From Lepidostoma basale (lineage: Eukaryota > Arthropoda > Insecta > Trichoptera > Lepidostomatidae): 64,000 nucleotides of DNA. The notes below the pieces were generated by a model. That model saw only the letters and a list, made by a program, of their open reading frames with translations. It did not search any database and had not been told where the DNA came from. The position numbers and the translations under genes are program-made. The first letter of the stretch is position 1; every line of letters begins with the position of its first letter. Location of the stretch: the NCBI GenBank assembly GCA_022606425.2, contig JAHDVF020001225.1:124001-188000 (forward strand). Reading direction: 5' to 3'. Shown one piece after another: positions 5,569-62,161 of the stretch.

Positions 5569-5614
5569 AATATCAAACATGTTTCGTACTACCCAGCTCT
5601 TCCTCAGTGATATT
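5569..5614 (-). ncRNA. Hammerhead ribozyme-like module, family 1
   Basis: On the minus strand: stem I strand AATATCA, core CTGAGGA, a hairpin AGAGCTGGGTAGTAC, then GAAA, palindrome ACATGT, one T, and TGATATT. AATATCA and TGATATT are exactly complementary (7 bp), the core matches CUGANGA/GAAA, and the base 5' of the predicted cut is U, allowed at position 17. Caveat: one extra unpaired A follows CUGANGA before stem II, as in all copies here, and stem II has a mismatch in this copy. Confidence 0.6.
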
Positions 5615-5698
5615 GTATAGATATTTAAAATATTATAAAAAAATTTACAAAAATGGTCAGTTTTGACAGATGTTATAAAGATTTAATTTGGAACGTTT

Positions 5699-5998
5699 AT
5701 GCTTTTGTTATAACAAATATTATGAATCAATTTAAAATTGAAAATAATTATTTAAAGTTCTTATTGGGAACCCAATAAGAACTTCAAATAATTATTATTT
5801 TAAAAATTAAATTTATTCATAATATTTGTTATAGCAAAAGCATACCCAGAAACATGGATGATATTTATTTTTAATTTGTTTAATATAATAAGAACTTCAA
5901 AAAAAAATTATTTCAAAATTTAAATTTATTCATAATGTTTGTTATAACAAAAGAATACACAGAAACATGTCTGATATTTAATTTTAATTTGTTTAAAT
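5699..5998 (+). repeat. Palindromic body and two 3' half-modules of the family 1 element
   Basis: Bases 5699-5768 and 5771-5846 are inverted copies around a centre reading TTATTGGGAACCCAATAA. Downstream, two direct copies start with ATAAGAACTTCAAA and end in CAGAAACATG...GATATTT (about 5838-5870 and 5960-5982). These are the 3' halves of the hammerhead-like module of 5569-5614 in the opposite orientation, with the CTGANGA half deleted. Confidence 0.6.
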
Positions 5999-6359
5999 AG
6001 TGAGTATTGTATACAAAGTATATAGAAAAAATACAAAAATATTACAAAATTATTATAATATTACAAAAATTAATATTAAATATTACATAAAAAATACAAA
6101 AATATAAAGTTATAGTGTGATTTACCAAAAACTCTCGAGAACCGAAACAAGTTTTCTTAATTTCCCAAAAAACATGAATTTTGGATTTGGTGCGATATGG
6201 CTAGGGAGATGTCTCTTTTACTATCTCCAAACTGAACAGAAAAATTAAAAATACCTTTGTAATTGAATTATACAATATATTAAAATTATTATGTTTTCTA
6301 AGTGATAGTCCCACCATTCAAATAACAAAAATAATTTTATAAATAGGACCGCAGTTAGA

Positions 6360-6665
6360 AGTCAGAGTCTACTAATAGGACAAAGAACCTTGGGATAAAT
6401 GTAAGCCCTTCGCTCCATCGCAGGCGAAACCCTCAGAGATTGGATCAAAAATGAAACGATAAGGTCTGTCTATGGTGTTAAGGACATATAAAATGGGAAA
6501 GAAGCAGAAGGAGCTTTTGAAGAGACCACGTGGATCGCATGGAGAATACAAGAATTGCAAAAATTGATAAAGATGAAAACCCAAGCAGCAATAGATTACC
6601 AGAAAGGCCGCCAAAAAGATGTAGAGATGGTTGGATTACATCATTCCAGGACAGTTAAATGTCAT
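6360..6665 (+). mobile_element. LINE ORF2 C-terminal relic
   Basis: Broken plus-strand frames give a DHVDRMENTRIAKIDKDENP stretch followed by LPERPPKRCRDGWITSFQDS. This is the W-x-x-H-V-x-R-M ... R-P-P-x-R-W ending of an insect non-LTR element. Same general type as 13926-14165. Confidence 0.65.
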
Positions 6666-6774
6666 AAAAAAGTCATACGACCTAAAATAATAGGAAAAAT
6701 AAGAATAAAAAGACTGCTGTATTGACATAAGAAGACGATGATAAAAGTTCCGAAATAGCATTTTTTAAAATTAA

Positions 6775-6902
6775 ACCGGTTCTATGCAACTTCGACCTCT
6801 CAACGAATTGTGAATGAGAATATGTACGAGAAGTTCGATGTGTCGGGAAAAGGAGAGAATCCTTTTTAGAAAACCTTCGAGAATGGTTCAGTTGCAGCAC
6901 AA
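6775..6902 (+). mobile_element. LINE-B-like C-terminal fragment
   Basis: Bases around 6835-6900 read RCVGKRRESFLENLREWFSCST, matching the G-R-R-x-S-W-L-R-N-L-R-E-W ending of LINE-B proteins. Short and isolated. Confidence 0.55.
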
Positions 6903-6981
6903 TTTTTTTTCTTTTTTAATTTTTTTTATACCATTTGTTTACACAACACTTACTTTAATTTTTTTTTAATTATATAGACAT

Positions 6982-7007
6982 CTTTCGGACAACCAGTCCT
7001 TCTTCAG
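6982..7007 (-). ncRNA. Hammerhead-like module, family 2 (left of a pair)
   Basis: Minus strand: CTGAAGA, hairpin AGGACTGGTTGTCC, then GAAAG in place of GAAAC, then ATGTC. Hairpin GGAC/GTCC is intact. It faces away from the plus-strand copy at 7155-7178. Stem I pairs only with a bulged base. Confidence 0.5.
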
Positions 7008-7154
7008 TGATACATATTATAAAGATACATATTTAAAATATTATATGATCTGACAGATGATATAAAGATTCTTCTTCTTAAAAAGATATTAAATAATCTT
7101 TATAACACCTGTTAGATCATGTAAACAATTTTATAATATTTTAAATATGTATCA

Positions 7155-7178
7155 CTGAAGAAGGTGGTTGTCCGAAAC
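7155..7178 (+). ncRNA. Hammerhead-like module, family 2 (right of a pair)
   Basis: CTGAAGA, AGGTGGTTGTCC, GAAAC, then ATGTCT. The palindrome ACATGT would form stem III in a dimer, with C at the cleavage position. It forms an outward-facing inverted pair with 6982-7007, separated by about 150 bp of partly palindromic AT-rich DNA. Confidence 0.5.
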
Positions 7179-7259
7179 ATGTCTATGTAATTTTTTTTAA
7201 TGTAAGTGTTGTTTTAACAAAGTGCATAAAAAAATAAAAAAATAAATAAAGCAATTACA

Positions 7260-7905
7260 ATACAAAGTATGGTTAATATAGAACAAACTTTTATATTCGG
7301 ACCTGCTGTATCAAGGGTAGAAATGTCCATGATCATGCCCAACCATTAATAGGAGAGGATCGGGAAAAACAATAATATTAACAATAGAAATGACCTTAAA
7401 GAATTGAGAACCTTTTTCTCTTGAAGGTAAAAGGAAAAACACGTATACTTTAATGCAGGTTCAATTCAATACATACAAAATGCAGGTACAAATTTACCGT
7501 TCGGATAGTAACAAAGTTTTCTATCACAACAGGCAATCGATTGAGAACTGTTGTTTCATTACTTCTGGGATCGTACAAGAGCTAGAAAAGGATGCTGGAT
7601 AGCACTCGCAATGAAACTTGGAAACAATTTGTTTGAACGGGTGTTTCCCGCGTTTTATGGTCCAGTGTCTTTAACACGTACTGAGAGCAACCGCGGTCAC
7701 TTTATACGAGTACGTCATCTTAACGCGCCCGTGTCTGATAAGGAATGTAGCAGCTCACGTGTTAACTTTTTAGCTACGTGAGCCAAGATGTTAACCCTCC
7801 CTTCCCTGTGATGGGTATCTTCTACACGTAGCTTCTATTAACCATCAATATTTCTATACATGTAATAAATACAAGGTTAAGATTTTTGGTATTCCTCCAT
7901 AATAT
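7260..7905. other. Unassigned, possible LTR or old repeat
   Basis: Contains two mixed-composition stretches, 7420-7500 and 7540-7800, that look unlike the surrounding AT-rich DNA. The 76-residue plus frame at 7551-7781 has no family I recognise. No paired copy is visible in the window, so no class is assigned. Confidence 0.35.
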
Positions 7906-7914
7906 ATAACTAAC

Positions 7915-8345
7915 TAACTAACCATCACGCCGTCTCCCCGAAAGGGTAGGCAGAAAAAATGGACTGTCACACTTTAACCGATGCGGCACTCCATCCTTCT
8001 CTTTTCGCCCCGCGGGAGACGCGGTGTGATGGGTAGCGAACCTCATCGCCACCAATAGGCATCTCCCGCGCACACTTCGATCTTCCAACGTCCACAAAAT
8101 AAATCTAAAACAAATAATATAAAATACAATGGTATAAAATAAAATAACAAAATAAAAATAATTTAATACAAAATGTTATTTTTAGATGGTGCACATTTGT
8201 CTATTTAATTTATGTTCCACGAATCCACCGTTTTTTAAATTTAGCACATAATGTTTTTCTGATGTTGCACATGTTGACATGGACGATCCGGACTTTTGTG
8301 TTTATTTAATTTATGTTACACGTATCCACCGTTTTGTTTTCAATA
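7915..8345 (-). mobile_element. SINE-T, near full length
   Basis: Starts (minus-strand 3' end) with AACTAACTAACCATCACGCC and the CCCCGAAAGGG hairpin, and contains GGGGCG...GAGACGCGG and both tandem head units with ATCCACCG. Colinear with 3045-3468. Non-coding. Confidence 0.75.
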
Positions 8346-9110
8346 TATTTACGCATTAATTAAAAAAATTATATTAATAATAATCAGAATTCATCGGGTA
8401 CATTGTGAACATCGGAAACAAAATTCGTAGCGCTGAGTACGCGACACTATATTCGCATCTCACTCTTGCATATGTTCTAGCTCAATGTTCTCACTCTCGC
8501 CGTCCCGCCGGCGGCAGTCGCTTTCGAGCTTGCAACCAGAGTGAGTCTATGCCCGTTCCGTGAGCGTTGCCAGATGTTTTTTTTAAAATGTTTTTAGCAA
8601 TCAAATCTCAATTATTATAATTTTTGACTTCAATTATAATTATATAAGGGGATTAGCTATGAATGTTCCTATTTTTCCGATTTAAAATCGCTAATTTTTT
8701 ATTTACGCATTTCTACAGAAATTTTTATATTTTCTTCCCTCTTCTGCTTCATGCTTCATTTCTTTACATAAGGGTTGGCTCTAGAACTACAGACACAAAC
8801 TGAAGACACACACAAACAAATACTTTCCGCAAAAACAACGTGTTTATTTTATACTATAACACAAGTTTTGTTGACCTAGCAAATCTTATATATACGATTA
8901 TTTCTACGCTGGAATGATTGTTCTTGGCAAACTGATATGAATTTTTTGGCACGTTTTGGCGTGACAGTTTCACAGTGTGCCATAAGGAAATCGGCAATTT
9001 GTATTTTGTATTTCAGCATTTTTTATAGAACACGAACATACTCCATTTACAAATAATCTATTTTATACGTACAAAATAAGTATTCATTGTCATGACACGT
9101 TTATAATTGA
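8346..9110. other. No recognised gene; local GC-rich block
   Basis: A GC-rich block at about 8420-8570, with CTCACTCTCGCCGTCCCGCC and AGTCGCTTTCGAGC, stands out from AT-rich flanks. A loosely similar CG-containing block occurs at 31260-31400. Function unknown; it could be an unclassified SINE or MITE. Confidence 0.35.
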
Positions 9111-9119
9111 AAAGTATTA

Positions 9120-9600
9120 ACCCTTTAAGTACCTCGCATGGTTTGGATATAAAAAAAACAAGTGAACGAGAGAAGATTTGTTAAAAGTTTGTATACAACG
9201 TAGAAATGAGGTCACTAAGAAGGATGTGCGGAAAAACAATGTATGATAGAATATATAATGATAAATAAGGAAATAATGTAAATCGGATGAATGCCTGATA
9301 AATAAAATCAAGAAAGGGTCACTAAGATGGTTTGGACATATGGAACGAATGGATGAGGAATGAGTGAATGGAAAAAGAAGTCGAGGAAGGCCAAGGAAGA
9401 CATGGCATGACGAAATTAATCAATAACTGAAATGCGGCCATGTTCGAATTAAGAACAATCGACGAGCGTGCATGTCACGATATGTGAATGTAGAAGAGTC
9501 GCTAGTGATATGTCAGGATAGAACAATGTGGCGATCCATCCTTTCTGCCTTCCCCTCCGGGGAAACGGCGTGAAGGTTGGTTAATTAGTTAGTTAGTTAG
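9120..9600 (+). mobile_element. TTAG-LINE 3' portion
   Basis: Reads VEMRSLRRMCGKTMYDRI and RWFGHMERMDEE, then the RGRPRKTWHDEI block with frameshifts, ending in CCCCTCCGGGG and GGTTGGTTAATTAGTTAGTTAG. 5'-truncated. Confidence 0.75.
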
Positions 9601-9825
9601 TGAATGGAAAGATAATGTATGGAAGACCAAGAAATGCATGGCATGACCAAATTAATCAATTACTAAAAGGCGGCCATATTCGAAGTAGAAAAAATCGACG
9701 AGCGTGCATGTTACGATGTACGAATGTAGAGGAATCCAGAGAGTCAAGTTAGGACAGATCAGTATAGCGGTTCATCGTCTCTGCCTACCCCTCGGGAAAA
9801 ACGGCATGATGGTTAGTTAATTATT
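9601..9825 (+). mobile_element. TTAG-LINE 3' end, second copy
   Basis: A second short 3' end immediately follows the tail of the preceding copy. It begins near ATGGAAAGATAATG and ends GGCATGATGGTTAGTTAATT, with the hairpin partly deleted (CCCCTCGGGA). It looks like insertion into, or extension from, the earlier tail. Confidence 0.65.
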
Positions 9826-9854
9826 AAATAGACTTGAAAATGTTTAAAATATAA

Positions 9855-10150: not shown

Positions 10151-10359
10151 ACTTATTTATTGTTTCTTGAACAATGATGTAAAACTCCACATAAATAAAT
10201 TAATACAAATGAAAACGTATGTTTTTTAGTTTTATTATAATTTATATGAATGACGTGTTTCGCCTTTGAAAACGCCGATTTTCTATAAGTCTAATTAAAC
10301 TGAATGGAATTGCAATGTGTTTCAATTATGGAATGATTTTCATTTTTTTTATTTCAATT

Positions 10360-11240: not shown

Positions 11241-11244
11241 CGTT

Positions 11245-12670: not shown

Positions 12671-12675
12671 TTTAC

Positions 12676-12716
12676 GACAGCTGTTTCATCAACCAATGTT
12701 GACATCATCAGGTGTT
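12676..12716 (-). ncRNA. Hammerhead-like module, family 3
   Basis: Minus strand: AACAC, CTGATGA, T, stem II GTCAAC-ATTG-GTTGAT, GAAA, then palindrome ACAGCTGT, C and GT. The canonical CUGAUGA core is intact. Stem II closes with six pairs, one a G-U wobble. Proximal stem I is only AC/GT. Confidence 0.6.
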
Positions 12717-12795
12717 ACAAAAATATATCAAATGTCAAATTTTCGTGAGTATCATAGTGTTTCGGCCAAAACAATGGACTATTTAAAAGTATAAA

Positions 12796-26365: not shown

Positions 26366-26574
26366 AGCTAGACGTCTTTATTTCATATTCATACAGTAGT
26401 AAACCTCAAACAAAGATCTGTAGTTTCCATTATGCAATGTGATTTTTCTATTCTAATTTCCAAGCCATTTAACAATCATAATTCGATAAAGATAGGTTTT
26501 TATTAACGTAATAGAAATCAGTAAAATAATAATTAATACGCATATAAGAAAGCCTGTTTTTTGGAAGTTTTATG

Positions 26575-26780
26575 TTAATTTAGTGAAATGCCGTGTTTCG
26601 ACTTCCTAAGGCATTATCAAAAGTCATTTGATAAATCCTTAGCAAGGCGAAACATGTCCTTACCATAAATTATAAAATAGTTCTAGAAAACAGATGTATT
26701 TATTATTGAATACTAAGATTTTTTTTAATTGTTGAAGAAACAGTAAATAATAAGTATATTTCATGATTTGGATAAATTAG
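26575..26780. repeat. H repeat with inverted pair of hammerhead-like motifs
   Basis: Minus-strand motif TTGATAATGCCTTAGGAAG-TCGAAACACGG (26583-26616) and plus-strand TTGATAAATCCTTAGCAAGG-CGAAACATGTCC (26617-26655) face outward. Family 4 carries TTGATAA in place of CTGANGA, so the core is altered. Confidence 0.55.
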
Positions 26781-27420: not shown

Positions 27421-27594
27421 TAATTTTTTTTAAGGTACCTAGTCCATTATTTTGGCCGAAGCACTATGATACTTCAACATAATTTCTGTTAAAATTTAAA
27501 ACACTGTTATAATATCGCAGTTCTTTTTATTCACTGAGTGTCACGAATGTTGGCAACATCACGTGTAACAATAAAGAACATTTTAGTGTAACAC

Positions 27595-27623
27595 CAGATG
27601 ACGCCAACATCGGTTGGCGAAAC
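27595..27623 (+). ncRNA. Hammerhead-like module, family 3 (core mutated)
   Basis: CCAGATGA replaces CCTGATGA, followed by CGCCAAC-ATCG-GTTGGCG, AAAC, palindrome ACAGCTGT, C and GCGAC. Stem II is extended and stem III intact, but U4 of the core is A, so this copy should be inactive. Confidence 0.5.
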
Positions 27624-27699
27624 AGCTGTCGCGACAGTCTCAGTGAATAAAAATAAATTGTGATATTATAACAGTGTTTTATTTTTAACAGTAATAATT

Positions 27700-27925
27700 T
27701 TTTTTTCGTAACGCTATTTTTCGCACCGCATTCACCTCTTATATTTTCATTCGATACTCTTACAAACTCAGATTTTTGACACATTAGTCTAAAATATCTT
27801 GTCTTCTACTGCATTTATTCTACTTTTATCATTTGTCAGTTTCACGCTTCGCTTCTATACATGGTCGGTACAAAAACACTGTTGTGCACTGACATTTAAG
27901 CTTTTATGGAAAGGTTTTTTGTTTG
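27700..27925 (-). mobile_element. TTAG-LINE relic
   Basis: Antisense of the VSNENIR block (CACCGCATTCACCTCTTATA), the INAVEM block and the AVHNGVL region. Truncated both ends. Confidence 0.6.
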
Positions 27926-28932: not shown

Positions 28933-29050
28933 TTGTTTACATAGATAAAAAATACAAATTATTTCGAAGATCTCAATTTGTGGTATAGCATTAATAAAAA
29001 AAAATATATAATTCTTGTGTACGATTTTTTTTATATCACCTTACTTACCG

Positions 29051-29077
29051 GTTTCACCCCAGCCAAAGCTTCTTCAG
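29051..29077 (-). ncRNA. Hammerhead-like module, family 5 (left of a pair)
   Basis: Minus strand: CTGAAGA, AGCTTTGGCTGGGGT, GAAAC, CGGTA. Core is intact and ACCGGT is palindromic, but stem II is irregular. It is one half of an outward-facing pair with 29106-29145. Confidence 0.45.
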
Positions 29078-29105
29078 GGCTACAAACACCAAATTTTGTT
29101 TTTGA

Positions 29106-29145
29106 AACCCTGACGAAGCACCGGCGGGAGCGAAACCGGTTGGTT
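29106..29145 (+). ncRNA. Hammerhead-like module, family 5 (right of a pair)
   Basis: Stem I strand AACC, core CTGACGA, A, stem II GCACC-GGCG-GGAGC (one A-A mismatch), GAAA, palindrome ACCGGT, T, and GGTT. AACC and GGTT pair perfectly. Only 33 bases separate it from the minus copy. Confidence 0.6.
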
Positions 29146-29299
29146 CGATATAATGAAAAAAGTAGTATAAATTCAAAAAATAAAGTTTTTAAAATATAAT
29201 AAGTTTACAATTAACAGTAGTAACTATTCTGACGTCAGCAATGTTTTTTTTAATTCGTCTATAGTGGATTTCAGGTATTCATTATTAATAAAAAAATAA

Positions 29300-35409: not shown

Positions 35410-36230
35410 TAAAAAAACATCCTTTTTATAGAAGTTTTATTATATTTTATGGAAATGACATGTTTCTCCCTTCTAAGGTATTATCAAATGTCAGAAGGCG
35501 AAACATGTCATTCCAATAAAATAAAATAAAACTTCTAGAAAACTGGCGTTTTAATTCGTATTAATTATTTAATATGGAGTTTTACATCATTGTTCAAGAA
35601 ACAATAAATTAATTAAAAAAACTTTTTTTTATTCATTATTACATATGAAAACGTTTGTTTTCTAGAAGTTTTATTATATTTTATATTAATGACATGTTTT
35701 GGCTGTCTAAGGCATTATTAAACGTTATAAAACTTTTAGAAAAATAATGAAAGATCTATAAAACAGACGTTTTCATTCGAATTAATGATTTAATGTAAAG
35801 TTTTACATCAATGTTCAAAAACGAAGAAAACTACTACTTTCTAGAAATTTTATTATATTTTATGTGATTCACATGTTTTGCATATCTATGGCATTATCAA
35901 ATGTAATTAACTTCTATCAAACGGACGTTTTCATTCGTATTAACGATTTAACATGGAATTTACGATCATTGTCCAAGGAACAATTGATATTTATTAATCC
36001 TTATGTAATGATAAATTCGTAATCATTGATCGTGAACGAATCTGCTTTCGAGAAATTTTATAATATTTTATTTGACATTATCAACTGAATGAAACTTCTA
36101 GAAATGTTATAAAAATTCTAGAAAACAGACGTTTTCATTCGTATTAACGATTTAATAGGGAGTTTTAGATCAATTTTATTTAATTATTACGTAATGATTA
36201 ATTCTAGATATAATTTTATGCCTTAATTGG
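35410..36230. repeat. H repeat array (four to five diverged units)
   Basis: Units repeat the order hammerhead-like motif, AAAACTTCTAGAAAACAGAC, GTTTTCATTCGTATTAATGA, TTTTACATCATTGTTCAAGA. Copies start near 35430, 35650, 35840 and 36030. The block GAAAACAGACGTTTTC is itself a hairpin. Motifs reading GATAATGCC...GAAACATGTCAT occur mostly on the minus strand (35459, 35696, 35868) with one plus copy (35485). Confidence 0.6.
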
Positions 36231-36686: not shown

Positions 36687-36840
36687 ATAATTCTGTCGAT
36701 CACAAGGAGCCCGGCGAAACCAATTGCTGTAGAAATAATGAAACAAGTTTAAGAGTTTTGAAAAACATAATTTTATTATTTAAAATGAACTTCAATCATG
36801 AGATTAAAGTAAAATCATTTATTGCACTTTTCGTAAACAT

Positions 36841-36868
36841 GTTTCGGATCGCAGGCACCCTTCCTCAG
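36841..36868 (-). ncRNA. Hammerhead-like module, family 1-like
   Basis: Minus strand: TATACA, CTGAGGA, AGGGTGCCTGCGATCC, GAAAC, ATGTTT. Core is intact with palindrome ACATGT and U at the cut; stem I pairs poorly. A decayed plus partner with CTTAAGAAGGGCGTCTGATC is at 36903-36930. Confidence 0.5.
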
Positions 36869-37084
36869 TGTATACATTTTAACTAAGGTTAAATTCTTAA
36901 CACTTAAGAAGGGCGTCTGATCCTCAAAGCCTGTTTGAGAAAATTGCTACAGTGAAAATAAAATTTACTTTAAATGTTATTAAATTTTGAAATTGTTGTT
37001 AAGGGTGACGAAAAATATATGATAAATTAAAAAAAAAATAACATCACAATAAAAAACCTTTTATAAATGAGTTGAGTAGGTAAC

Positions 37085-37230: not shown

Positions 37231-37395
37231 AAAGTGGAGATTAATTTATTTTTTTGTAAAATATTGAATGTTAAGGGGTTAACATTGTGTAATTCCATTG
37301 TAAATTGGAATTTAAAACACAACACTGTATATTTTCCACTTAAATTTATTCAATATATTTATAAAATAAAAATAAATGTATTAAAATACGACAAT

Positions 37396-37421
37396 GTTTC
37401 GGAGGTGACCTCCATCTTCAG
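37396..37421 (-). ncRNA. Hammerhead-like module, family 6
   Basis: Minus strand: ACAC, CTGAAGA, T, stem II GGAGG-TCA-CCTCC (perfect), GAAA, ACATTGT, C, GT. Same family as 62123-62161. A truncated plus partner (ACATCTGAAGATTACCTGAA) is at 37450-37469, and the flanks AAAGTGGAAAATATACAGTG repeat in inverted orientation (37327, 37474). Confidence 0.6.
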
Positions 37422-37699
37422 GTGTAAGTATATAACAGTTATATACTTACATCTGAAGATTACCTGAATAAACTAAAGTGGAAAATATACAGTGTTGTGT
37501 TTCAAATTACATATTTTGTAATAGTCGAGAAATATCAGTATTCATTGTAAACGTCCCATGTAATGAAAGTATTTCGTGCTGAATATTTTAAGTTTATTTA
37601 TTTATTTGTTTTATTAAATATTGAATGTGCGTTATAACATTCGTTCGTTGCCAAAAATTTTAAGGTTTTGATTAATTAATAAAATGTATAGTATTAACA

Positions 37700-41345: not shown

Positions 41346-41440
41346 GACAATTTTTATAATTTTTTATTATTATTTATATTTAAAATTAAATAGAAATAAA
41401 AACACTGCACTTTGTTTTCCACCACTCGGTTATTTAAATT

Positions 41441-41478
41441 GCCGACTAGTTTCGCTTGTGCCCAAGCTTCCTTATGGC
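41441..41478 (-). ncRNA. Hammerhead-like module, family 7 (left of a pair)
   Basis: Minus strand: GCC, ATAAGGA (from CTGAGGA), A, stem II GCTTG-GGCA-CAAGC (perfect), GAAA, palindrome ACTAGT, C, GGC. GCC/GGC closes stem I. Two core bases are mutated. Confidence 0.5.
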
Positions 41479-41691
41479 TTTGTAATAACAGAACAACAAC
41501 ACATATTTACATTAATTATTATTTTTTATATTTTGTTTATTTTAGTGTAACAAACAAACATGTATAATATATATAGTGGATAGAAAGAGAGACAGGGGGA
41601 TGAAAACTGGGACCCGTATATTCGAAAAATCTCCCCCCTCCCTCTCTTTCAATCTACTTGTAAATCTATGTTGTTGTTCTTTTATTACGAA

Positions 41692-41729
41692 GCCCTGAGG
41701 AAACTTGGGTACAAGCGAAACTAGTCGGT
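41692..41729 (+). ncRNA. Hammerhead-like module, family 7 (right of a pair)
   Basis: GCC, CTGAGGA, A, ACTTG-GGTA-CAAGC, GAAA, palindrome ACTAGT, C, GGT. Intact core; stem I GCC/GGT has one G-U. Outward-facing pair with 41441-41478, 214 bp apart. Confidence 0.55.
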
Positions 41730-41974
41730 AAATAAAATAACCGCATAGTGGTAAAAAACAAAGTGCAGTGTTTTTTCTATTTTATTTTAAATATAAATAA
41801 TTATAAAATTGTAAATTTCTTTCCACAAAGTGAATGCCTCATACGAAAATTTAATTTTTATTTATTTAAACGGTAAAATATTTTTATAAAATAAAAATGA
41901 CAACCACTTGTTTCAGCATGTTTTTTCAATTATAAGGTTATTAAAATGGAATTCCACTGTGTTAACGCATTAAC

Positions 41975-42968: not shown

Positions 42969-43493
42969 TTTTTTATGGGTGACTGGTGTGTTTATGCTTC
43001 AAGTATGAATTATAATTCCATCTGTGGACAATATATGGACAATATTACCATTTCAAAACAGATTCCATATTTAAAAACCGCGAAAATCTACTTTATCGAA
43101 TGTCACGTGATATTTATATGACGTCACACGAGCAAGTTTCAACAGATCATGTATTGCAAACTAAAGATTTTTGCGCGCGCGCTTTTTCGTACTTTTTTCG
43201 CGATATTGTGAAGTTTTACTGTTTTTAGCGTGTTTTAGTGTGATTTTGTCGTTTTATATTGTGTGTTTCTACAAAATTCTCGCAAGGTTCGGAGGTTTCT
43301 TAGTGTTTTACGTAGTTTAAAGTAAATTACAGTTTTATACAGTGTTTTATCATACTTTTCTTGCAAATTTTATAAGTTTTACAGTGCCATACTATATTTT
43401 AACGTGATTTGAAGTTTTTTATTGTATCGCATTCTGTATTTACTTTTGAATTTTTACTGCCGTGATTTATTTGTATCGATCTATATTGCTAAA

Positions 43494-45164
43494 ATGGAAA
43501 GAGACATAGGAATTGAGGACATATTAATGAATAGTGACAATGAGGAAGAAAACATCGAAGATATTGATGATATATCAATGGAGTTTTATGATTCTTCTTC
43601 TGATGATGATGAGGAACCAGATATTCAACCTAGTGCAAAACGCAGTCGAGAAGAATCAAGAATGTGGAACAACTCCACATTTACTCCAACTCTTCACGAT
43701 TTCGATGGGTTTCAGTCCGGCTTAAAAGCAAATTTAAATGTACAAGGGGATTACGTCGAGTTGGAACTTTTTCAGCTCTTTTTTACCGATGATGTTGTGG
43801 ACGTAATAGTTCGAGAAACAAATATTTATGCCGCGGCTGTATCCCAGAAAACACCTGAATCGTCCAAAATGAAAAAATGGGTAAACACGACAGCGCAAGA
43901 AATTTTTGTTTTTCTGGCCACTATTATTTTGATGAGCTTGGTGGGAAAAAATTGCATTAAAAAATACTGGACAAATAATGCCCTTATCGAGACACCATTT
44001 TTCAAAGTGTTATTCTCTCAGGACCGTTTCCTTTTGATATTGAGAAATTTGCACTTTACAAGCCTGTGCAGCAGTAATGATAGGCTTTATAAAATAAGAC
44101 AAATTTTAGACCCGCTCAGGAAAATAATGAAAGAAACATTCAGTCCTCACCAGAATCTATGTATCGATGAAAGTTTGTTACTCTGGAAAGGCAGACTGTC
44201 TTTCAAGGTTTACATCCCATCGAAAAGACATAGGTTCGGGATTAAATTTTTTGTTTGTTGCGATGTAAAGACGGGATACGTTTTAGATTTAATTATTTAT
44301 ACCGGTGCCGAAACGGACATTCAGATTCATTCTGATGTAGGAATTTCTGGTTCTGTGGTTTTGTGTTTGCTAAAGGACTACCTTGATCGTGGACATCGCC
44401 TATATGTAGACAACTGGTATACTTCCCCCGCTTTATTTGATTGTCTCTTTGACAGAAAAACAAATGCATGTGGAACTGCAAGAGTCAACCGCAAACAAAT
44501 GCCGAAGTTTGAAAAAATTAAAAAAGGGGATGTAGTGGCATTTAACAGTGCAAATCTGATGGCATTGAAATGGCGCGATAAAAGGGATGTAGTTATTCTA
44601 ACCACCATGCATACCGATACAATGATCGAAACTCCCAAGATAGACTATAGTACTGGACTCAATAAACATAAACCAGAAGCAGTCGTAGACTATACGAAGA
44701 ATATGGGAAGTGTCGATAATGTGGATAGAATTTTGGGACTCGGGGCAGTTGGACGCAAAACCGTAAAGTGGTACAAGAAAGTATTCTTCCGGCTCCTGGA
44801 GATCTCAATCGTCAATGCATTCTTTTTGTTTCGCACTGTAAAATGCAAAAACACATCTTTTGAGGACTTTAAAGAGAAACTCGTAGCCCAGATCGTTGAG
44901 AAATACCACACTCCACGAGCACCAACATCTGGTGGAAGACGAGCCAATGATAATCCTATCAGACTAACAGAAAGACATTTCATTCAACCGGTTCCACAGG
45001 CACAAGTCAAGGGTAGCACTACCCGACGCCGGTGTCATGTGTGCGCGCATTCTTCAATAAGACCACCGAAGAGAAAGGAAACAGGATACATGTATATTGA
45101 ATGTGATGTTGGGCTATGTGTTCATCCATGTTTTAAGGATTTTCATACAAAAAAACACTTCTAA
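43494..45164 (+). CDS. piggyBac-family transposase (DDE_Tnp_1_7 type)
   Basis: 556 residues from the ATG in AAAATGG at 43494; an in-frame ATG at 43422 would add 24 residues but has a poorer context and a hydrophobic stretch unlike the family. Order: acidic N-terminus (DDDEE near 37), a core with the three catalytic aspartates at about D225 (LCIDESLLLW), D306 (LYVDNWYTS) and D408 (MGSVDNVDR), and a C-terminal cysteine-rich domain from about 515 (C-H-V-C ... C-D-V-G-L-C-V-H-P-C) used for end binding. Length and spacing fit active piggyBac proteins, and no stop or frameshift is seen. It would excise and insert DNA at TTAA without footprints. Confidence 0.93.
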   Translation: MERDIGIEDILMNSDNEEENIEDIDDISMEFYDSSSDDDEEPDIQPSAKRSREESRMWNNSTFTPTLHDFDGFQSGLKANLNVQGDYVELELFQLFFTDDVVDVIVRETNIYAAAVSQKTPESSKMKKWVNTTAQEIFVFLATIILMSLVGKNCIKKYWTNNALIETPFFKVLFSQDRFLLILRNLHFTSLCSSNDRLYKIRQILDPLRKIMKETFSPHQNLCIDESLLLWKGRLSFKVYIPSKRHRFGIKFFVCCDVKTGYVLDLIIYTGAETDIQIHSDVGISGSVVLCLLKDYLDRGHRLYVDNWYTSPALFDCLFDRKTNACGTARVNRKQMPKFEKIKKGDVVAFNSANLMALKWRDKRDVVILTTMHTDTMIETPKIDYSTGLNKHKPEAVVDYTKNMGSVDNVDRILGLGAVGRKTVKWYKKVFFRLLEISIVNAFFLFRTVKCKNTSFEDFKEKLVAQIVEKYHTPRAPTSGGRRANDNPIRLTERHFIQPVPQAQVKGSTTRRRCHVCAHSSIRPPKRKETGYMYIECDVGLCVHPCFKDFHTKKHF

Positions 45165-45790: not shown

Positions 45791-46320
45791 AATGAACATT
45801 TTTAAGTTATCTTCTTATCTGGATAAAAATTTTAGTATCCACTGAGAAAATTTAGAACTTCCGGTAAATGCGATCCTTGCTAAACATCACGAATCCCTAC
45901 GGTTTTCAGATTTTCTGGTATTAGGGTGAGTGTGAGAGGGAAGCCGGGGAATTCGGGAATTCGGAGAACTGAATGACTGGGAATCTGGGAATCACGACCG
46001 ATTTGAACTAGTACTATCCAGAATATGTGCCTGTGATTAATGGGCTATATATAATGTGGAAACTACACGATCTTGAAATTACCCTCAATACATTTATGGT
46101 CTATTTAAAGTCATTTCTATATAGCATAGTAAGGGCATTTCATAGGTAAAGTCTTGTTAGATATATGGTATATGACACATTTATTAAGAACGAATTATTA
46201 TTTTCATTCTTAAAGAGATATGAGAATATTGAATTGTTTTGAAGTGAACATTAATGTTTTTGGATATTAATATTGTTTCTTCTATGTTCGCCATACTTTG
46301 TGTTGTAGATGTATTATATT
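45791..46320. other. No recognised feature
   Basis: Mixed composition to about 46010 (with GAATTCGGGAATTCGGAG), then AT-rich. No motif identified. Confidence 0.4.
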
Positions 46321-46382
46321 ATATATAAATTTTTATATTCAATTTGTATACAACACTCACTTTTTAAACAAATTAAAATTAA

Positions 46383-46426
46383 ATATCAAACATGTTTCGA
46401 ACTACCCAGCCCTTCCTCAGTGATAT
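46383..46426 (-). ncRNA. Hammerhead ribozyme-like module, family 1 (left of a pair)
   Basis: Minus strand: ATATCA, CTGAGGA, A, GGGCT-GGGT-AGTTC, GAAA, palindrome ACATGT, T, TGATAT. Stem I closes with six Watson-Crick pairs, stem II with five pairs including wobbles, and core and cleavage base fit. One of the best candidates for activity. Confidence 0.65.
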
Positions 46427-46444
46427 AGATATTTAAAATATTAT

Positions 46445-46775
46445 AAAATTGTTAATATTATAACAAAATAATGAAAGGATCATTAAGATGGTTTGGACAT
46501 ATGAAAAGAATAAATGAAGAAAGAATGGTAAAAAAATTATATGTTAACGATGAAAATTGAACAAGAAATAGAGGAAGACCGAGGAAAACGTGGCACGATC
46601 AAATAAATAAAATATTCAATGATAGCCATGTAAGGAGTCAGAGAAATCAACGCCCGTGCTTGACACAATGTATGAATGTTGAGGAAGAGAGAGAAATATG
46701 TCAGGAATGAAAATGTGGCAGTCCATTCTTTCTGTCCACCCCTTCGGGGTGACGGCGTGGTGGTTAGTTAGTTGG
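46445..46775 (+). mobile_element. TTAG-LINE nested in a hammerhead-bearing element
   Basis: TTATAACAAAATAATGAAAG, RWFGHMKRINEERMVK, RGRPRKTWHDQI, then CCCCTTCGGGG and GGTTAGTTAGTTGG. Inserted between the inverted family 1 modules. Confidence 0.75.
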
Positions 46776-46895
46776 TTCTTTTTTAAAAATTGTTTACAAA
46801 CAGGTATGGTCCTGTTTCGACAGATGTTATAACATCTATCAAAACTGACCGTATTTGTAAACAATTTTATAATATTTTAAATATCTATAAATGTT

Positions 46896-46939
46896 ATATC
46901 ACTGAGGAAGGGCTGGGTAGTCCGAAACACGTTTGATAT
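46896..46939 (+). ncRNA. Hammerhead ribozyme-like module, family 1 (right of a pair)
   Basis: ATATCA, CTGAGGA, A, GGGCT-GGGT-AGTCC (five pairs, one G-U), GAAA, ACACGT, T, TGATAT. Stem I is perfect. The stem III palindrome has one change (ACACGT for ACATGT). Faces outward opposite 46383-46426; the flanking TTTAATTTTAATTTG is also inverted. Confidence 0.65.
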
Positions 46940-46999
46940 TTAATTTTAATTTGTTTAAAAAGTGAGTGTTGTATACAATGTATATATAAAAAAAATATA

Positions 47000-47455
47000 T
47001 AAATATTGTTATTTGAAATGTCATGGAAGAAGAGTAAATTTAAAAAAATTTAAGTATTTATTTACTTAAATTCCACTTGAGTGGAATGAAGTGAGACCTA
47101 AGTGGGATTTAAATAAATATACAATATATATTTTTAAAATTTTTATAATTATAAATATTTTACGCTTAAATTTCATTATCTCAACAATTTCATGTAGTAT
47201 GGTGGAATAAAGTTATCCCGCAAAAATCAAAAACAGTATTGAAATCCATTTTATAATATATCAAACACGTAACAGAATTTTTTTCCTTTATTTTCGTTTT
47301 TCCGCTTTACGTTAATATTTTTCATTTTCTTTCGTTGTTTCACTAATTTCGTTCTGAGATAATCAATATAATTTTTATTTTTGTTTATTTTTTTTTATGA
47401 ATACATGTTTAAATAAATGAGAGTATCAATTAAAATTATACCATATTTTAAGGAA
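47000..47455. other. No recognised feature
   Basis: AT-rich; includes inverted TTACTTAAATTCCACTTGAG and ACCTAAGTGGGATTTAAATAA near 47055-47115. No coding signal. Confidence 0.4.
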
Positions 47456-51668: not shown

Positions 51669-51758
51669 ACGTAAACCAAAATAAGTATAACGTAAAAACA
51701 GAATATAACAATTTGTCTTTAGAGATCTTGGGTTTACCGGTGTAACTTGTCTTTCTGG

Positions 51759-51800
51759 ACCGACGTTTCGGAGATCGTTGCAGTCTCCCTCTTCAAGGTA
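51759..51800 (-). ncRNA. Hammerhead-like module, family 8
   Basis: Minus strand: TACC, TTGAAGA (C3 changed to T), G, stem II GGAGA-CTGCAACGA-TCTCC (perfect), GAAA, ACGT, C, GGT. ACC and GGT close stem I. The first core base differs from CUGANGA; otherwise complete. It lies in a ~165-bp repeat cut into the TTAG-LINE. Confidence 0.5.
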
Positions 51801-51834
51801 TTTTTTTTTGTATGCGACAGTATAACATGTCCCA

Positions 51835-52483: not shown

Positions 52484-52530
52484 GTAACACCTGATGATGC
52501 CAACATCGGTTGGCGAAACAGCCGTCGCGT
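52484..52530 (+). ncRNA. Hammerhead ribozyme-like module, family 3 (best copy)
   Basis: TTGTAACAC, CTGATGA, T, stem II GCCAAC-ATCG-GTTGGC (six perfect pairs), GAAA, ACAGCCGT (one change from the palindrome), C, GCGTCAC. The core is canonical CUGAUGA/GAAA. Proximal stem I is only one or two pairs; distal pairing as in 41290-41345 is plausible. Confidence 0.6.
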
Positions 52531-57115: not shown

Positions 57116-57119
57116 ATTA

Positions 57120-57299: not shown

Positions 57300-57592
57300 A
57301 TATTACATAATGAATACGAATGAAAACGTGCTTTTTCTAGAAGTTAGAATAATAATTTATTCGATTGAAAAGGCATTAAATAAGATATAATACATACGTC
57401 TTTTTTATAGAAATTTTATTAATGACATGTTTCGTAATTAATTTCGGCATTATCAAAGTCCTACTAGAAGCGAAACATGTTATTCCCATCAATTATTATT
57501 AAACTTCTAGAAAACAGACGTTTTCATTCATATTAAGTATTTGATACGAGTATAATAAGACTTCTAGGAAACAGATGTTTTCATTTGTATTA
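57300..57592. repeat. H repeat copy
   Basis: AAAACTCCATATTACATAAT, minus motif ending GAAACATGTCAT at 57422, plus half TAGAAGCGAAACATGTTATT at 57466, and AACTTCTAGAAAACAGACGT. Confidence 0.55.
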
Positions 57593-57659
57593 ATTATACC
57601 ATATACGTAATTATACCATATACGTAATTATACCATATACGTAAGTATACCATATATGG
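57593..57659 (+). repeat. 17-bp tandem repeat, about four copies
   Basis: Unit ATTATACCATATACGTA repeats at 57593, 57610 and 57627, with a diverged fourth unit at 57644. A single copy of the unit recurs at 58234-58250 inside a 67-bp direct duplication. Confidence 0.8.
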
Positions 57660-57990
57660 TTATCTTCGATAGCGTCAGCACAGACTGTTTTATCTCCCAA
57701 CATGCAGAACCAACCTGCCTCTGGTGATGCCGGTGGCGAGAGCAATCAAACTGCTGAACATGATCGCTTCGGAGATCGATGTCTTTCATATTCGTGAAAG
57801 TACATTCAGAAGACAAATACTCTTGACTTTGGAGAGTATCTTGTATTCCTAATGTCGAACCATCTCTCATGTGTTCCTGGTATTATATATTTATTATGTT
57901 TTACCTGTTCTCAATAGATGCCTAAAACTATAAAAAATGTTTGTGAAGTCTTTTGAGAAAATAAACTGATTTGAATTTGAATTTGAATAA
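57660..57990 (+). mobile_element. TTGAT-LINE 3' part
   Basis: CAGAACCAACCTGCCTCTGG, GAGATCGATGTCTTTCATAT and the tail CTGATTTGAATTTGAATTTG. Frame broken (the minus frame there is a shadow). Confidence 0.75.
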
Positions 57991-57999
57991 GTCAAATTA

Positions 58000-58252
58000 A
58001 TACGAATGAAAACTTCTGTTTTCTAGATATTTTATAATATTTTACGTGAAAGACGTGTTTTTCATATCTATCAAGTATTGCAAGGCATTATCAAATATGC
58101 TTTATAATAAAAATCCTAGAAAACAGACGTTTTCATTCGTATTAATTATTTAGTGTGGAATTATCATTGTTCAAGGAATAATATATACGAGTATAATAAA
58201 ACTTCTAGGAAACAGATGTTTTCATTTGTATTAATTATACCATATACGTAAT
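58000..58252. repeat. H repeat copy with 67-bp duplication
   Basis: GTATTGCAAGGCATTATCAA, AATCCTAGAAAACAGACGTT, then 58186-58252, which duplicates 57545-57611 with one mismatch. Confidence 0.6.
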
Positions 58253-58735
58253 CACGAGCTCAGTAAAATAGTATGACCATATTTTTATTGAAGAAATTAT
58301 AGGCATATTTTCTTTGTGTACATCTGTATACCAATTAGTCAAAGTTCCGAAGTTTGAATCATTTGGGGTATTTCAACCCAATAGCTTCAGTTCGTAATAA
58401 GGTATCGAAACCTGAAATCTTGATAATCGACATGTTAGATTTGTATTCAGATCTACGTTTCCCTATCAGGTAAACTAAACGATTGTCTGCTTCGAGTATT
58501 TGAATGATATCAAGACACGAGTCAACTTTTGACTAGTTTTTAAATTTACGTCAAACCCTAATATTTCAAATTTCGAATAAAATTGCACTAACTCTTAATG
58601 CATTGTATCACGGAGCCGTGTAAAAACGTTATTGTATAACAAAGTGTTGTATCCTGGTCCCGTGTTTTCAGGTGGTTTACTAGGCGTCTAAAAATGTGCA
58701 TTTTATTGACGTCTAGTAACTTCTATAAATAAAGA
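58253..58735. other. No recognised feature
   Basis: AT-rich to mixed; nothing recognised. Confidence 0.4.
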
Positions 58736-58737
58736 CA

Positions 58738-59385
58738 AAACAAAGCTGCTGACTGTAGGCGGAACGCAATATCAGATGAGAGTAGTGGTGTCAGGAGTTC
58801 CACTAAAGAACACCAAGGAGTTTGTCTACCTCGGGAGCAAAATAACATGGGACGGTCGGTCTAAGAGCGAGGTCGACAGCCGTGTACATCAGGCTAGGCT
58901 TGCATTTAATAAAAGGTAGAAAATAATACAATCGAAAAATATAGACCTTAAACTGAGAATACTCCTCATCAAGACCTATGTATGGAGTATCTTGATTAAC
59001 GGCTGCGAGACATGGTGTCTATCCGAAAGAGATAAACGGAGACTAGGGGCTTATGAGATGTGGTCCTATAGAAGACTATTAGGAATTTCCTGGAGAAACC
59101 ACATTACAAATGAAGAGGTTCTCCAAAGAATCGAAGGAGGAAGTCAGCTCCTCAGGACCTTGTCCGAAAGGCGTGCAAGATGGATCGGCCATGTAATACG
59201 ACAAGAAGGCCTCTTGCATACCAAAATGGGGGGACCAACTCTAAGGGACGCCCACGCTGAGAGTACCTAGAGGACCTGTTGGTGGACGTGCGCTGCTCAT
59301 CATATGCAGATTTCAAAAGAGCCGCACAAGACAGGGAAGTATGGAAGAGAAGAATAGAAGAAATTGCTGCAAACCAATCCCAGGT
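58738..59385 (+). mobile_element. LINE-E ORF2 C-terminal part
   Basis: QMRVVVSGVPLKNTKEFVYL, GSKITWDGRSKSEVDSRV, LKLRILLIKTYVWSILINGC, then frames 58992-59270 and 59279-59524 with LSERDKRRLGAYEMW, HITNEEVLQRIEGGSQLL and VDVRCSSYADFKRAAQDREV. One stop (58919) and one frameshift (about 59275). Clear sister of 37700-38480. Confidence 0.8.
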
Positions 59386-59529
59386 TGAAACCAGAGAGAG
59401 AGAGAGATTAACTTATCTTAAAGTTTTTCTTAGTTTGAATAGCAACTACAAGAACCATTCCAAAGCCAGGTATTCTACCTTTGCTTATACAAATTTACAA
59501 CGGTTCTTTTTCAGTCATAAATAATAATT

Positions 59530-59735
59530 ATTCGCCTTCTGGAGACCACATTTTGCAGTTACCGGGTCCACTCCGAGTGCAAAACTTGTAAGATCCACCA
59601 AGCAGGTTGTCAAGGGCTATGTCCAAGCATATTTAAATAGACATACCTCCCACAGAAAAAAAAGAGAAACCCTGTAGAACCTGCAAGTTGTGTGCAAAGC
59701 ACAAAAAAGGAATGAGACCCAGAACGGTTGGGGCA
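59530..59735 (+). mobile_element. piggyBac C-terminal relic
   Basis: IPPTEKKEKPCRTCKLCAKH followed by KKGMRPR, with an upstream H-x-L-Q-L-P-G block in another frame. P-P-x-x-x-K-x-x-P-x-R-x-C-x-x-C is the start of the piggyBac cysteine domain. It differs from the complete element at 42885, so a second lineage. Confidence 0.6.
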
Positions 59736-60035
59736 GGCAGCAAGGGATCATTATGTTGGTTTGGACACATGGAAAGAATGAATGAAGAAATAATGGTAAA
59801 AAAATTTATGTTAACGATAAAAATGGTACTAGAAATAGATGAACACAGAGAAAATCGTGGCATGATCAAATAAATCAATATTGAAAAGTCAAAGAAATCG
59901 ACGCGCGTGCATGACACTATGTATGATTGTTGAGGAAACGAGAGAAATATGTCAGGAAAGAAAAATGTGCCAGTCTATTCTTTCTGCCTACTCCTTTGGG
60001 GAAATGGCGTGATGGTAAGTTAGTTAGTTAGTTTA
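59736..60035 (+). mobile_element. TTAG-LINE 3' end
   Basis: KGSLCWFGHMERMNEEIMVK, broken G-x-P-R-K block, ACTCCTTTGGGGAAATGGCG and GGTAAGTTAGTTAGTTAG. Confidence 0.7.
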
Positions 60036-60039
60036 GTTT

Positions 60040-60105
60040 TATGGCTTTGATCGGTTTTGACAGCTTGTCAGCATCTTTTGGTCTGGACCAGAAGATGGCA
60101 GTGTG
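60040..60105 (-). repeat. Degenerate hammerhead-like motif and hairpin
   Basis: Minus strand CTGACAAGCTGTCAAAACCG recalls family 5 with a damaged core. Next to it CATCTTTTGGTC and GACCAGAAGATG (60073-60099) form an inverted repeat. Confidence 0.35.
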
Positions 60106-60660
60106 AATCCCTTCGTTAAAACTTTATTATTTAAAATATAATACAATTTTCACATTGTTGCTTTTTTGTAAATCATAGACTACGATTGAAAATCCACCCT
60201 TTCAGATCCACATACCCACTCCTGACAATGAACAGGGGATGGTTTACTGAAGTGGTTTCAGTTAGCCGGCGGGCGGTTCGGCAAGAAGATGAATGACTTA
60301 AGTTTTCTCTAATATTCATCCTCTATTCTATGGATAGTTCTCTTTCATTACTAGACTTACTAGTTTGACTTGCTCTTTACCCTTTTGGGCTCCTGGTAGC
60401 GGATTGGGAACAAGAAGTACAAATATTGAAGTTGGCACGAACACAATCAATGAAATCGTGTAAGAAAAATTACCTAAGTCTTGATATGATATATGAAGAG
60501 GAGACCTGGAGAGTTGTGGATTTCCAGAAGAAGTTTTTTTTTGTGCAAAATCTCGATGAGATTTTTTGGTCCAGTCCGCGAGGATAATATAGTGTGTGTT
60601 TTTTAAGAGGTTTGGTTTTTAAACTAGCAACATTTTTTCTATAGACTGTCAATTTGACAA
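60106..60660. other. No recognised feature
   Basis: No family recognised. The minus frame 60470-60685 has no motif. Confidence 0.4.
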
Positions 60661-60664
60661 TTAA

Positions 60665-61030
60665 GAATTGATTTATAGTCATCACGTTTTGCCATTTTAC
60701 TATAAATAGATTTACGTTAGAAAAGCGCTTAAAAATTGTGCAAATTTATTTTGAAATCATGGTTTGGTTCGCCAAATTTATCGTGCACTACGTCCATTTT
60801 AAGGGCGACATAATCGTCCATCCAAGCAAGTTATTCGAAAGATCATGGATCGTTTTCGCACCACATACACTCTAGTGGATAATACGCATCCACAAAGACG
60901 ATAATTGTCGAAAATTGGATTTCAAGATTGCGCTTTATTCGAGCTAACCGTGGCGCTCATATGCCCGAAATCATATTTAAACAATAATGGCATAAACTTA
61001 TCTATTAAATAAAGTCAATTTCATAGACAT
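60665..61030 (+). mobile_element. mariner-like transposase relic with internal deletion
   Basis: RHNRPSKQVIRKIMDRFRTT and YTLVDNTHPQRR match the second helix-turn-helix part of a mariner-related insect transposase family (R-P-x-x-x-x-I-x-x-I-V-x-K-F). Immediately after, ANRGAHMPEIIFKQ then a stop resembles that protein's last residues (R-G-x-H-x-P-D-I-I-F). The whole catalytic core is missing. Confidence 0.55.
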
Positions 61031-61159
61031 TAACATTATTTTTATGTGGGTTTTTTTTCATTTTTAATATGTATTGTATACCTCTAAAAAAACAACTATG
61101 TTTGGTGACGTTGGTATAATTCTGAGTTGTACAAACTATACTATAAATTAGAAGTCGAC

Positions 61160-61435
61160 AAGATTGTAATACCTCAACGGCTTATGTAGGCTGGACATCT
61201 GTTGCGAATATTGGAGTTTACAACACTCACACAGTTGACATTAACAAGACTGGATTGAAGGTGCAGTGTGGGAAGATCACTGATTCGTTGGCTGGACAGT
61301 GTTCTGAAGGACTTGCAATTGTTGGGAGTCAGACCTGAGAAGTTGATGTCCAGGGCTCAGAATAGAGTCAGCTGAAGAAGCATTTTAGAGGCGACCGAAG
61401 TCCACCAAGGACCGTAGAGCTAAAAGAAGAAATAT
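61160..61435 (+). mobile_element. LINE C-terminal relic
   Basis: SLIRWLDSVLKDLQLLGVRP then AQNRVS, a stop and RSILEATEVHQGP, the R-W-x-D-x-V-x-x-D-L ... A-x-D-R-x-x-W-R-x-x-x-x-E-A pattern. Ends in TAAAAGAAGAA. Confidence 0.6.
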
Positions 61436-61904
61436 AATGATTAATTACCTATTTCAGGATCGAAATTGTTCGCTTAAATGGGCTGGAGGCGTACCAGATT
61501 GGATAAGTTTAGCAATGAGCATATTTCGGGCAGTTTTAAGTTTGCCCCTCTAATAAATAAGGTCAATAATTGTAGATTGAGATGGTTTAGACACGTCAAA
61601 TGCCGAGAAGATGACCACATCATTTCTTGGAGTGGTTGAGAATCGGTGATGTTGGCTATTGGTGATGTGGGAGTAATTAATTGAGAACACCCTCACGAAA
61701 TGTAGACATAAAACAAAGCTGACCCAAAACCGGGCGTTCAGGAGAAATTATGCTAGGAAGGCCGACCCTCCTGTTATATAAAAGTTGATAAAAATAATTA
61801 ATATAAATAACAATGAAGATTAAGACTAATTGCAGTATAAAATTACAGATTCTAAAAGGGTACCCAGAAATGGCTGTAAATTGCTTCACGTGTATCGGAG
61901 AGTA
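61436..61904. other. Possible LINE relic and unassigned DNA
   Basis: 61455-61650 has LINE-like composition (CTTAAATGGGCTGGAGGCGT suggests a KWAGG motif) but too little survives to assign. The remainder has nothing recognised. Confidence 0.3.
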
Positions 61905-62115
61905 ACTAACCATCACGCCCGTTTCCCCGGGGGGTGGACAAGGCTGAGAGGATGGAACGCCATATTGCTCTGACCTGACAAACCTCTAACAAACACACAT
62001 CGTAACATGCACGCTCGTTGATTTTTTCTGCTTCAAATGTGGCCGCATTTTAATATTTGATTAATTTGGTCATGCCATGATTTCCTTGGTCTTCCACAGC
62101 TTCTCTTACAGCTCA
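61905..62115 (-). mobile_element. TTAG-LINE 3' end, inverted
   Basis: GTAACTAACCATCACGCCCG, GC hairpin, GACTTCAAATGTGG-like block and antisense NQIKILKCGH region. Truncated at 62112 by the family 6 element. Confidence 0.65.
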
Positions 62116-62122
62116 CATAAAA

Positions 62123-62161
62123 ACACGACATGTTTCGGAGGATACCTCCATCTTCAGGTGT
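62123..62161 (-). ncRNA. Hammerhead ribozyme-like module, family 6 (best copy)
   Basis: Minus strand: ACAC, CTGAAGA, T, stem II GGAGG-TAT-CCTCC (five perfect pairs), GAAA, palindrome ACATGT, C, GTGT. Stem I ACAC/GTGT is perfect. Core, stems I and II and the cleavage base C17 all fit; the extra U before stem II is the only departure. A decayed plus partner (GGTATCCTCCAAAATATGTC) lies at 62407-62426. Confidence 0.65.

Follow-up and report, generated by a model that had tools for sequence, protein, structure and literature searches.

Short and long 3' ends in head-to-head pairs of hammerhead-type folds from Penelope-like elements of Lepidostoma basale

Minimal type I hammerheads of Penelope-like elements (PLEs) were described by Cervera and De la Pena (2014) and Lunse et al. 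(2017), here as related in the available portions of PMC7761336, PMC6155905 and PMC7229834. They have a core with little or no stem III and are present in thousands, both dispersed and in the pseudo-long terminal repeats (pLTRs) of PLEs; in the available portion of PMC7761336 their role is called a mystery. The similar motifs reported here come from Lepidostoma basale (Trichoptera): from 64,000 nucleotides (nt) of contig JAHDVF020001225.1 (assembly GCA_022606425.2, forward strand, positions 124,001 to 188,000), referred to as the window and numbered from its first letter, and from the rest of the assembly. As predicted from sequence, these motifs are minimal hammerhead-type folds, and those of the youngest family (hereafter the young family) tend to lie in outward-facing pairs that follow a layout rule, new here: one arm has a short 3' end and the other a long one in 32 of 34 pairs. 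The hammerheads of PLEs have been published before, as have their inverted pLTRs, tails and short target duplications. Compared with the minimal hammerheads of PLEs as described in the portions cited, the folds of L. basale have an extra base before stem II (which the earlier ones may or may not share), the young family reads CTGTCGA, and the dispersed copies are resolved as outward pairs.

Two further systems resemble these elements closely. Penelope of Adineta vaga, in the available portion of PMC3846280, likewise has head-to-head inverted pLTRs and short target site duplications (8-10 base pairs [bp] there), with an optional tail of ~31 bp on one pLTR that encodes the first residues of the open reading frame (ORF). 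The tail is optional there and self-priming is proposed, whereas in L. basale the short/long combination is found in 32 of 34 pairs and the arms are mostly unequal. PAc, a Poseidon PLE of Anolis carolinensis (PMC11167929), has a frame with reverse transcriptase (RT) and GIY-YIG domains and a hammerhead at the pLTR-ORF junction, as here; its tail is bounded by two internal reverse transcription start sites, at which the purified protein starts, and both target strands are cut and extended. No difference between strands was observed for PAc in vitro, whereas the arms of one insertion in L. basale nearly always appear to use different sites.

A first-pass annotation of the window had listed sites with the architecture CTGANGA, hairpin, CGAAAC. 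All of its coordinates hold the motif or a decayed version of it, more commonly on the minus strand: the motif at 41441 has two core changes (ATAAGGA), those at 12676 and 29051 read TGAAAC instead of CGAAAC, that at 6982 reads GAAAG, that at 51759 has one core change, and stem II at 5569 is imperfect. Missing from the list were 46420 and 46902, both with exact cores, and 27595, with one core change. A strict pattern (exact CTGANGA, stem II of at least 4 bp, GAAA) is present at 9 window sites, against a mean of 0.23 and a maximum of 2 in 60 dinucleotide shuffles of the window, which is 65% A+T and contains many 3' fragments of long interspersed nuclear elements (LINEs); the motif with an exact core is thus commoner than in shuffled sequence, as had been predicted. 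When one core change is permitted, count and background both rise and the excess is weak (15 sites; shuffle mean 4.6, maximum 15). The genome-wide search that had been proposed, for CTGANGA-N(8-25)-CGAAAC in 769 Mb (1572 contigs), gave 53,436 matches (26,867 + 26,569), 119-fold above the 448 (233 + 215) for the reversed pattern. The young family is represented by 4,778 exact copies of a 33-mer, the reverse of which is absent from the genome. That a short, loose pattern was matched at random would agree with the 15 window sites with one core change, a number equal to the shuffle maximum, but not with the 119-fold genome excess, the counts of the 33-mer and its reverse, or the covariation of stems I and II described below; chance has a negligible probability, and we reject it on the window shuffles of the exact core and the genome count.

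Stem II was examined in the first 100 genome matches, which comprise 83 distinct strings. If one base is skipped after CTGANGA, 291 of the 332 cells in the first four pairs are paired (mean 175, maximum 209 in 2000 shuffles of the 3' arms), but 119 are paired if it is not; the pair adjoining the core is biased here, as the search pattern fixes one side of it. This base is missing from the first-pass description, and because stem II requires it, the folds are not textbook hammerheads. In stem I, 188 of 264 cells are paired in 66 distinct sites (mean 113, maximum 138 in 1000 shuffles), for example ACAC/GTGT, ATCA/TGAT and CAGT/GCTG, and in some families pairing across the predicted cleavage site is absent. 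Kinship among the sequences inflates the shuffle tests of both stems, in each of which the paired cells exceed the shuffle maximum; the covariation, claimed in the first pass for stem II, is upheld for both and, together with the genome count, bears out the proposal of a large, diverse ribozyme-bearing retroelement population. Stem III consists of two pairs, with a self-complementary centre in several families (ACATGT, ACCGGT, ACAGCTGT); its shape is partly dictated by the search expression, and it is excluded from the pairing claim. The hammerhead core CUGANGA...GAAA with a paired stem II is thus found, save for the extra base and for CTGTCGA in the young family. This altered core base is expected to weaken cleavage. 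The Rfam hammerhead models have no match in the window, either at the curated threshold or up to E = 10.

The head-to-head pairing of these motifs went unnoticed in the first pass. An opposed copy within 1 kb (alignment score of at least 120) accompanies 8 of the 12 sites in the window, and the hammerheads of all eight pairs face outward; among 1148 random positions off the sites, 8.5% have such a copy. At the same cut-off, an opposed copy was found for 18 of the first 30 genome matches taken as loci, some of which overlap. Neighbours within 700 bp among the first 100 general genome matches comprise eight '-+', two '+-', four '++' and one '--'. For the first 100 of the 4,778 young-family copies, neighbours within 3 kb are 19 '-+' with no other orientation, and those within 6 kb are 20 '-+' and two '+-'. 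This arrangement bears on metazoan retrozymes, small circular RNAs with type I hammerheads that are mobilised by PLEs and encoded as direct tandem repeats (~170-400 nt in the available portion of PMC7229834, which also reports retrozyme-like repeats in insects). The elements in L. basale resemble them in being small and non-coding with type I hammerheads, and the four '++' and one '--' neighbours would suit them; however, the copies lie mainly in inverted pairs, opposed and outward. We consider retrozymes very improbable, and their layout is rejected because direct tandem repeats are not what is found (in the young family, '-+' alone within 3 kb). Separately, microRNA-like Rfam matches at or near some pairs were rejected as long inverted repeats that score under the curated cut-offs.

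A search for GIY-YIG domains yielded 62 matches, with 150 of 541 candidates scored, and 30 of these were made into loci. The young-family variant CTGTCGA-stem-GAAACCGGTC is present in 16 of the 30, which represent 14 distinct places; its distance behind the domain is 461-472 nt in 15 of these loci and 415 nt in the other. A GGAGG-family hammerhead lies 364-408 nt behind the domain in three others (L034, L044 and L046). One young-family locus, L061, has a frame (747 residues) with both RVT_1 (1.4e-13) and GIY-YIG (6.5e-5) matches, and the animal-named entries among its 120 best-listed relatives are insects, e.g. Phthorimaea, Euphydryas, Diabrotica and Schistocerca. The hammerhead of the young family lies near the pLTR-ORF junction, as in PLEs, with an ATG ~65 nt beyond it, and this family also resembles PLEs in its inverted pLTRs, its tail and the short duplication of its target site. 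Because the hammerhead follows a GIY-YIG domain and, in the young family, RT and GIY-YIG share one frame, the two traced families (young and GGAGG) are identified by these sequence features as PLEs. The families of the window had been called unrelated. Their diversity stands, but 'unrelated' is too strong, because they have several features in common: the fold, extra base included; the outward paired layout, where it is readable; and, in both families in which it is checkable, the position behind GIY-YIG. In the interval that separates the two 3' ends, an ATG is visible by eye, both in the young family and in three older families. The families of the window are best read as one kind, namely PLEs. 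In two other loci from this search, L031 (C102:22626-22847) and L033 (C729:135548-135769), the GIY-YIG domain lies in open frames of 623 and 621 residues, respectively, without a hammerhead; the L031 frame resembles bacterial UvrC by eye, and the assembly may therefore contain bacterial contigs.

Young-family arms end at one of two positions after the start of the 3' reference: 51-76 nt (short, inside stem III) or 107-117 nt (long). The stretch between these ends holds an ATG and translates, by eye, as MNFHQEISVKSFDYL; two relatives start MNFRKVTPDSIQYL and MDFRKITPDTINYI. The short end is therefore placed immediately ahead of the ORF, and the long one is ~45 nt inside it, as with the tail of other PLEs (PMC3846280 and PMC11167929). 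One short and one long end were found in all 14 pairs with PLE coding sequence (nine short-left, five long-left) and in 18 of 20 other young-family pairs, the remaining two having two short ends. These 20 pairs, classed from gapped 3' ends, comprise the 19 that the first 100 exact copies form at distances of up to 3 kb and a near-exact pair, L004, met by chance. Direct repeats of 10 nt or more flank 13 of the 14 coding pairs and 16 of the 20 others, all 29 of them short/long; that length is reached in 0.5% of 2000 random-window trials. Eight copies have no exact partner up to 3 kb away; of these, four (L100, L102, L103 and L104) have a damaged opposed arm, one end being short and the other long. 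The 15 usable pairs of three older families have the tail on exactly one arm (nine, four of them in the window), on neither (six) or on both (none), a tail with at least seven errors being counted as absent. Two of the 17 older pairs entered were dropped as their cores were misplaced: L012, with a tail on one side, and L027, with weak tails on both. An automatic search for flanking repeats in the older pairs gave a result near that of the random control and was given no weight.

Of 13 coding pairs, 12 have arms that differ at their 5' ends by at least 31 nt; in the remaining pair the difference is 2 nt. The joints are overlaps of 1-12 nt (five), blunt (two), fillers of 2-43 nt (five) or a gap of ~270 nt (one); in tiny pairs the fillers also vary between loci. 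Inner fillers of L086, L094 and L096 consist of leader sequence from close by, repeated in short units (GTCTGTC, CGGACCCAG and ACTGGTGGTCCAG), which resembles templated end joining. Variants are common to both arms in seven of ten informative insertions (those in which each arm has at least two variants), and the mean Jaccard index is 0.28 within 17 insertions versus 0.03 between insertions (544 comparisons, maximum 1.0).

These data bear on two other origins of the pairs. In self-priming, a model put forward for the PLEs of A. vaga in the available portion of PMC3846280, the cDNA folds back, or antisense RNA primes itself, and is copied on itself to give a head-to-head inverted repeat. Self-complementary centres in many tiny pairs, and the equal 5' ends of one pair (C542), are as this model expects. 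It also expects equal arms, in contrast to the differing 5' ends of 12 of the 13 coding pairs, and leaves the combination of one short and one long outer end unexplained; we regard self-priming as unlikely. Alternatively, each pair could multiply whole, in the manner of a miniature transposon whose two inverted ends are unequal; the short/long pattern would then be inherited and not made afresh at every insertion. The strictness of this pattern and the short flanking repeats would fit such copying, but junctions, fillers and 5' ends vary between insertions, and variants are rarely common to arms of different insertions, as the low Jaccard index between insertions indicates. One-unit copying appears quite improbable and is rejected on the differing junctions.

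Transcription start is suggested by the 5' ends of the 38 arms in 19 pairs: the end falls exactly at -6 relative to the core in 18 arms and 5-7 nt before it in 22, and seven arms run on for 60 nt or more. A TATA box, TATATAAA, starts at -36 (30 nt before -6) in 31 of the 34 longer arms listed. We infer a putative start at about -6, from which the RNA would open with stem I of the hammerhead. Arms that hold the hammerhead span the predicted cleavage site, so their templates would have been uncut there; they were chosen for holding it and cannot tell how often cleaved RNA is the template. In a single case, the plus-strand arm of L104 (C2:89970-90470, from 207) starts at the predicted cleavage site, as cleaved RNA would.

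We consider it probable that the PLE-family hammerhead folds, often in head-to-head pairs, derive from two-strand target-primed reverse transcription, with the short site used for one strand and the long site for its counterpart. Transcription would begin ~6 nt ahead of the core, which would make the hammerhead the leading fold of the RNA. Both target strands would be cut at staggered positions by the endonuclease, each target 3' end would start synthesis at one or the other site (on one RNA or on transcripts of one locus), and end repair by the host would then link the two cDNAs end to end. Tiny hammerhead-only pairs would arise when synthesis is primed at the leader copy close to the RNA 5' end, as run-off copies of the first 100-150 nt of the RNA; ORF-carrying pairs would arise when it is primed at a downstream copy of a tandem transcript. 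A precedent is the purified PAc protein, with its cutting and extension of both strands and its two internal starts (PMC11167929). Many of the dispersed hammerheads are likely to be such run-off leader copies. A broader form of this proposal is more tentative, and we would not yet lean towards it: in an asymmetric two-strand rule, two start sites on one RNA would each be used once, one for each target strand, nearly every PLE insertion would be born head-to-head with the hammerhead as its first fold, and the orphan minimal hammerheads of animal genomes would be run-off double leader copies.

Several observations weigh against two-strand priming, beginning with the equal 5' ends of C542 and the self-complementary centres. 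Two of the 20 pairs outside the coding set (L084 and L093) have two short ends, neither with a flanking repeat, as has one of the eight apparent singles (L099); three of these eight have no partner within the 501 bases read. Two of the 29 flanking repeats are in simple sequence (a TA repeat in C742, an A run in L087) and are weak as duplications. Six of the 15 older pairs lack a recognisable tail, and no variants are shared between the arms of three of the ten informative insertions. In vitro, PAc is reported to show no strand difference in its start sites (PMC11167929). No coding copy or PLE frame was tied to the GCTCC, GCTTG and GGAGA families, which tells against placing them among PLEs.

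The hammerhead-type sites of the window are collected in Table 1.

Table 1. Hammerhead-type sites in the 64,000-nt window (strand in brackets; classes are named by stem II; scores are those of the alignment to an opposed copy).
Span	Class	Hammerhead site(s)	Layout	Score	Tail and other features
5456..6101	GGACT/GGGCT	~5573-5612 (-)	inverted pair; opposed arm core lost	219	stem II imperfect; neither arm with clear tail
6904..7250	GGACT	6974-7012 (-), ~7150-7186 (+)	inverted pair	256	tail with 5 errors on right arm, none on left
12675..12777	GTCAAC	12675-12716 (-)	opposed arm not detected automatically	45	tail-like stretch at ~12747-12777 running opposite to hammerhead (by eye)
27476..27701	GCCAAC	27590-27631 (+), one core change	inverted pair; 3' half of left arm lost	196	tail with 2 errors on left, none on right
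28990..29200	GCTTT/GCACC	29043-29082 (-), ~29105-29144 (+)	inverted pair	138	
36756..37033		36833-36873 (-)	inverted pair; opposed arm degraded	123	
37302..37516	GGAGG	37388-37426 (-)	inverted pair; opposed arm deleted within core	154	tail with 6 errors on left arm (background 0/150 at that level), none on right
41353..41815	GCTTG	41441-41480 (-), two core changes; ~41690-41729 (+)	inverted pair	224	
46315..47005	GGGCT	46386-46425 (-), 46897-46936 (+)	inverted pair, missed in first pass	219	stem I 6 bp in both arms; LINE 3' end inserted between; exact tail on left arm, none on right
51757..51801	GGAGA	51757..51801 (-), one core change	amid inverted LINE fragments; without opposed hammerhead arm		
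52486..52527	GCCAAC	52486..52527 (+), exact core	no opposed arm detected	42	
62118..62435	GGAGG	62124-62162 (-)	degraded opposed arm at 62251-62435	91 (under counting cut-off)	stem I ACAC/GTGT; no tail seen on either arm

Other features of the window include an intact open frame of 583 residues at 43413-45161 (+), with matches to DDE_Tnp_1_7 (Pfam, E 1.1e-84) and zf-Tnp_2, which we take to be a piggyBac-type transposase. Another inverted-repeat family, CCTTAG...CGAAACATGTC, is found at 1559-1619, 26541-26730, 35424-36150 and 57320-58235 and may represent further hammerhead-like folds in which stem II is very short. A nearly perfect 80-nt hairpin at 42393-42472 matches mir-5014 on both strands, far under the curated cut-off. 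Many truncated LINE 3' ends, which have TCTGCCTACCCCTTCGGGGAGACGGCGTGATGGTTAGTTAGTT or close forms in common, are present in at least 19 places between 9279 and 60030.

In the literature searched, which includes PMC11167929, PMC3846280, PMC7761336, PMC6155905, PMC7229834 and PMC6431247 in their available portions, we found no statement that the arms of an insertion nearly always use different start sites, nor one that explains dispersed minimal hammerheads as copies of the leader in pairs, although the PLE hammerhead papers of 2014 and 2017, which lay outside this scope, could hold either. Further steps of PLE insertion are said to await validation (PMC11167929). A rule that is readable in thousands of insertions of one genome makes the mechanism of PLE insertion testable, and it suggests a simple way in which dispersed minimal hammerheads could arise.

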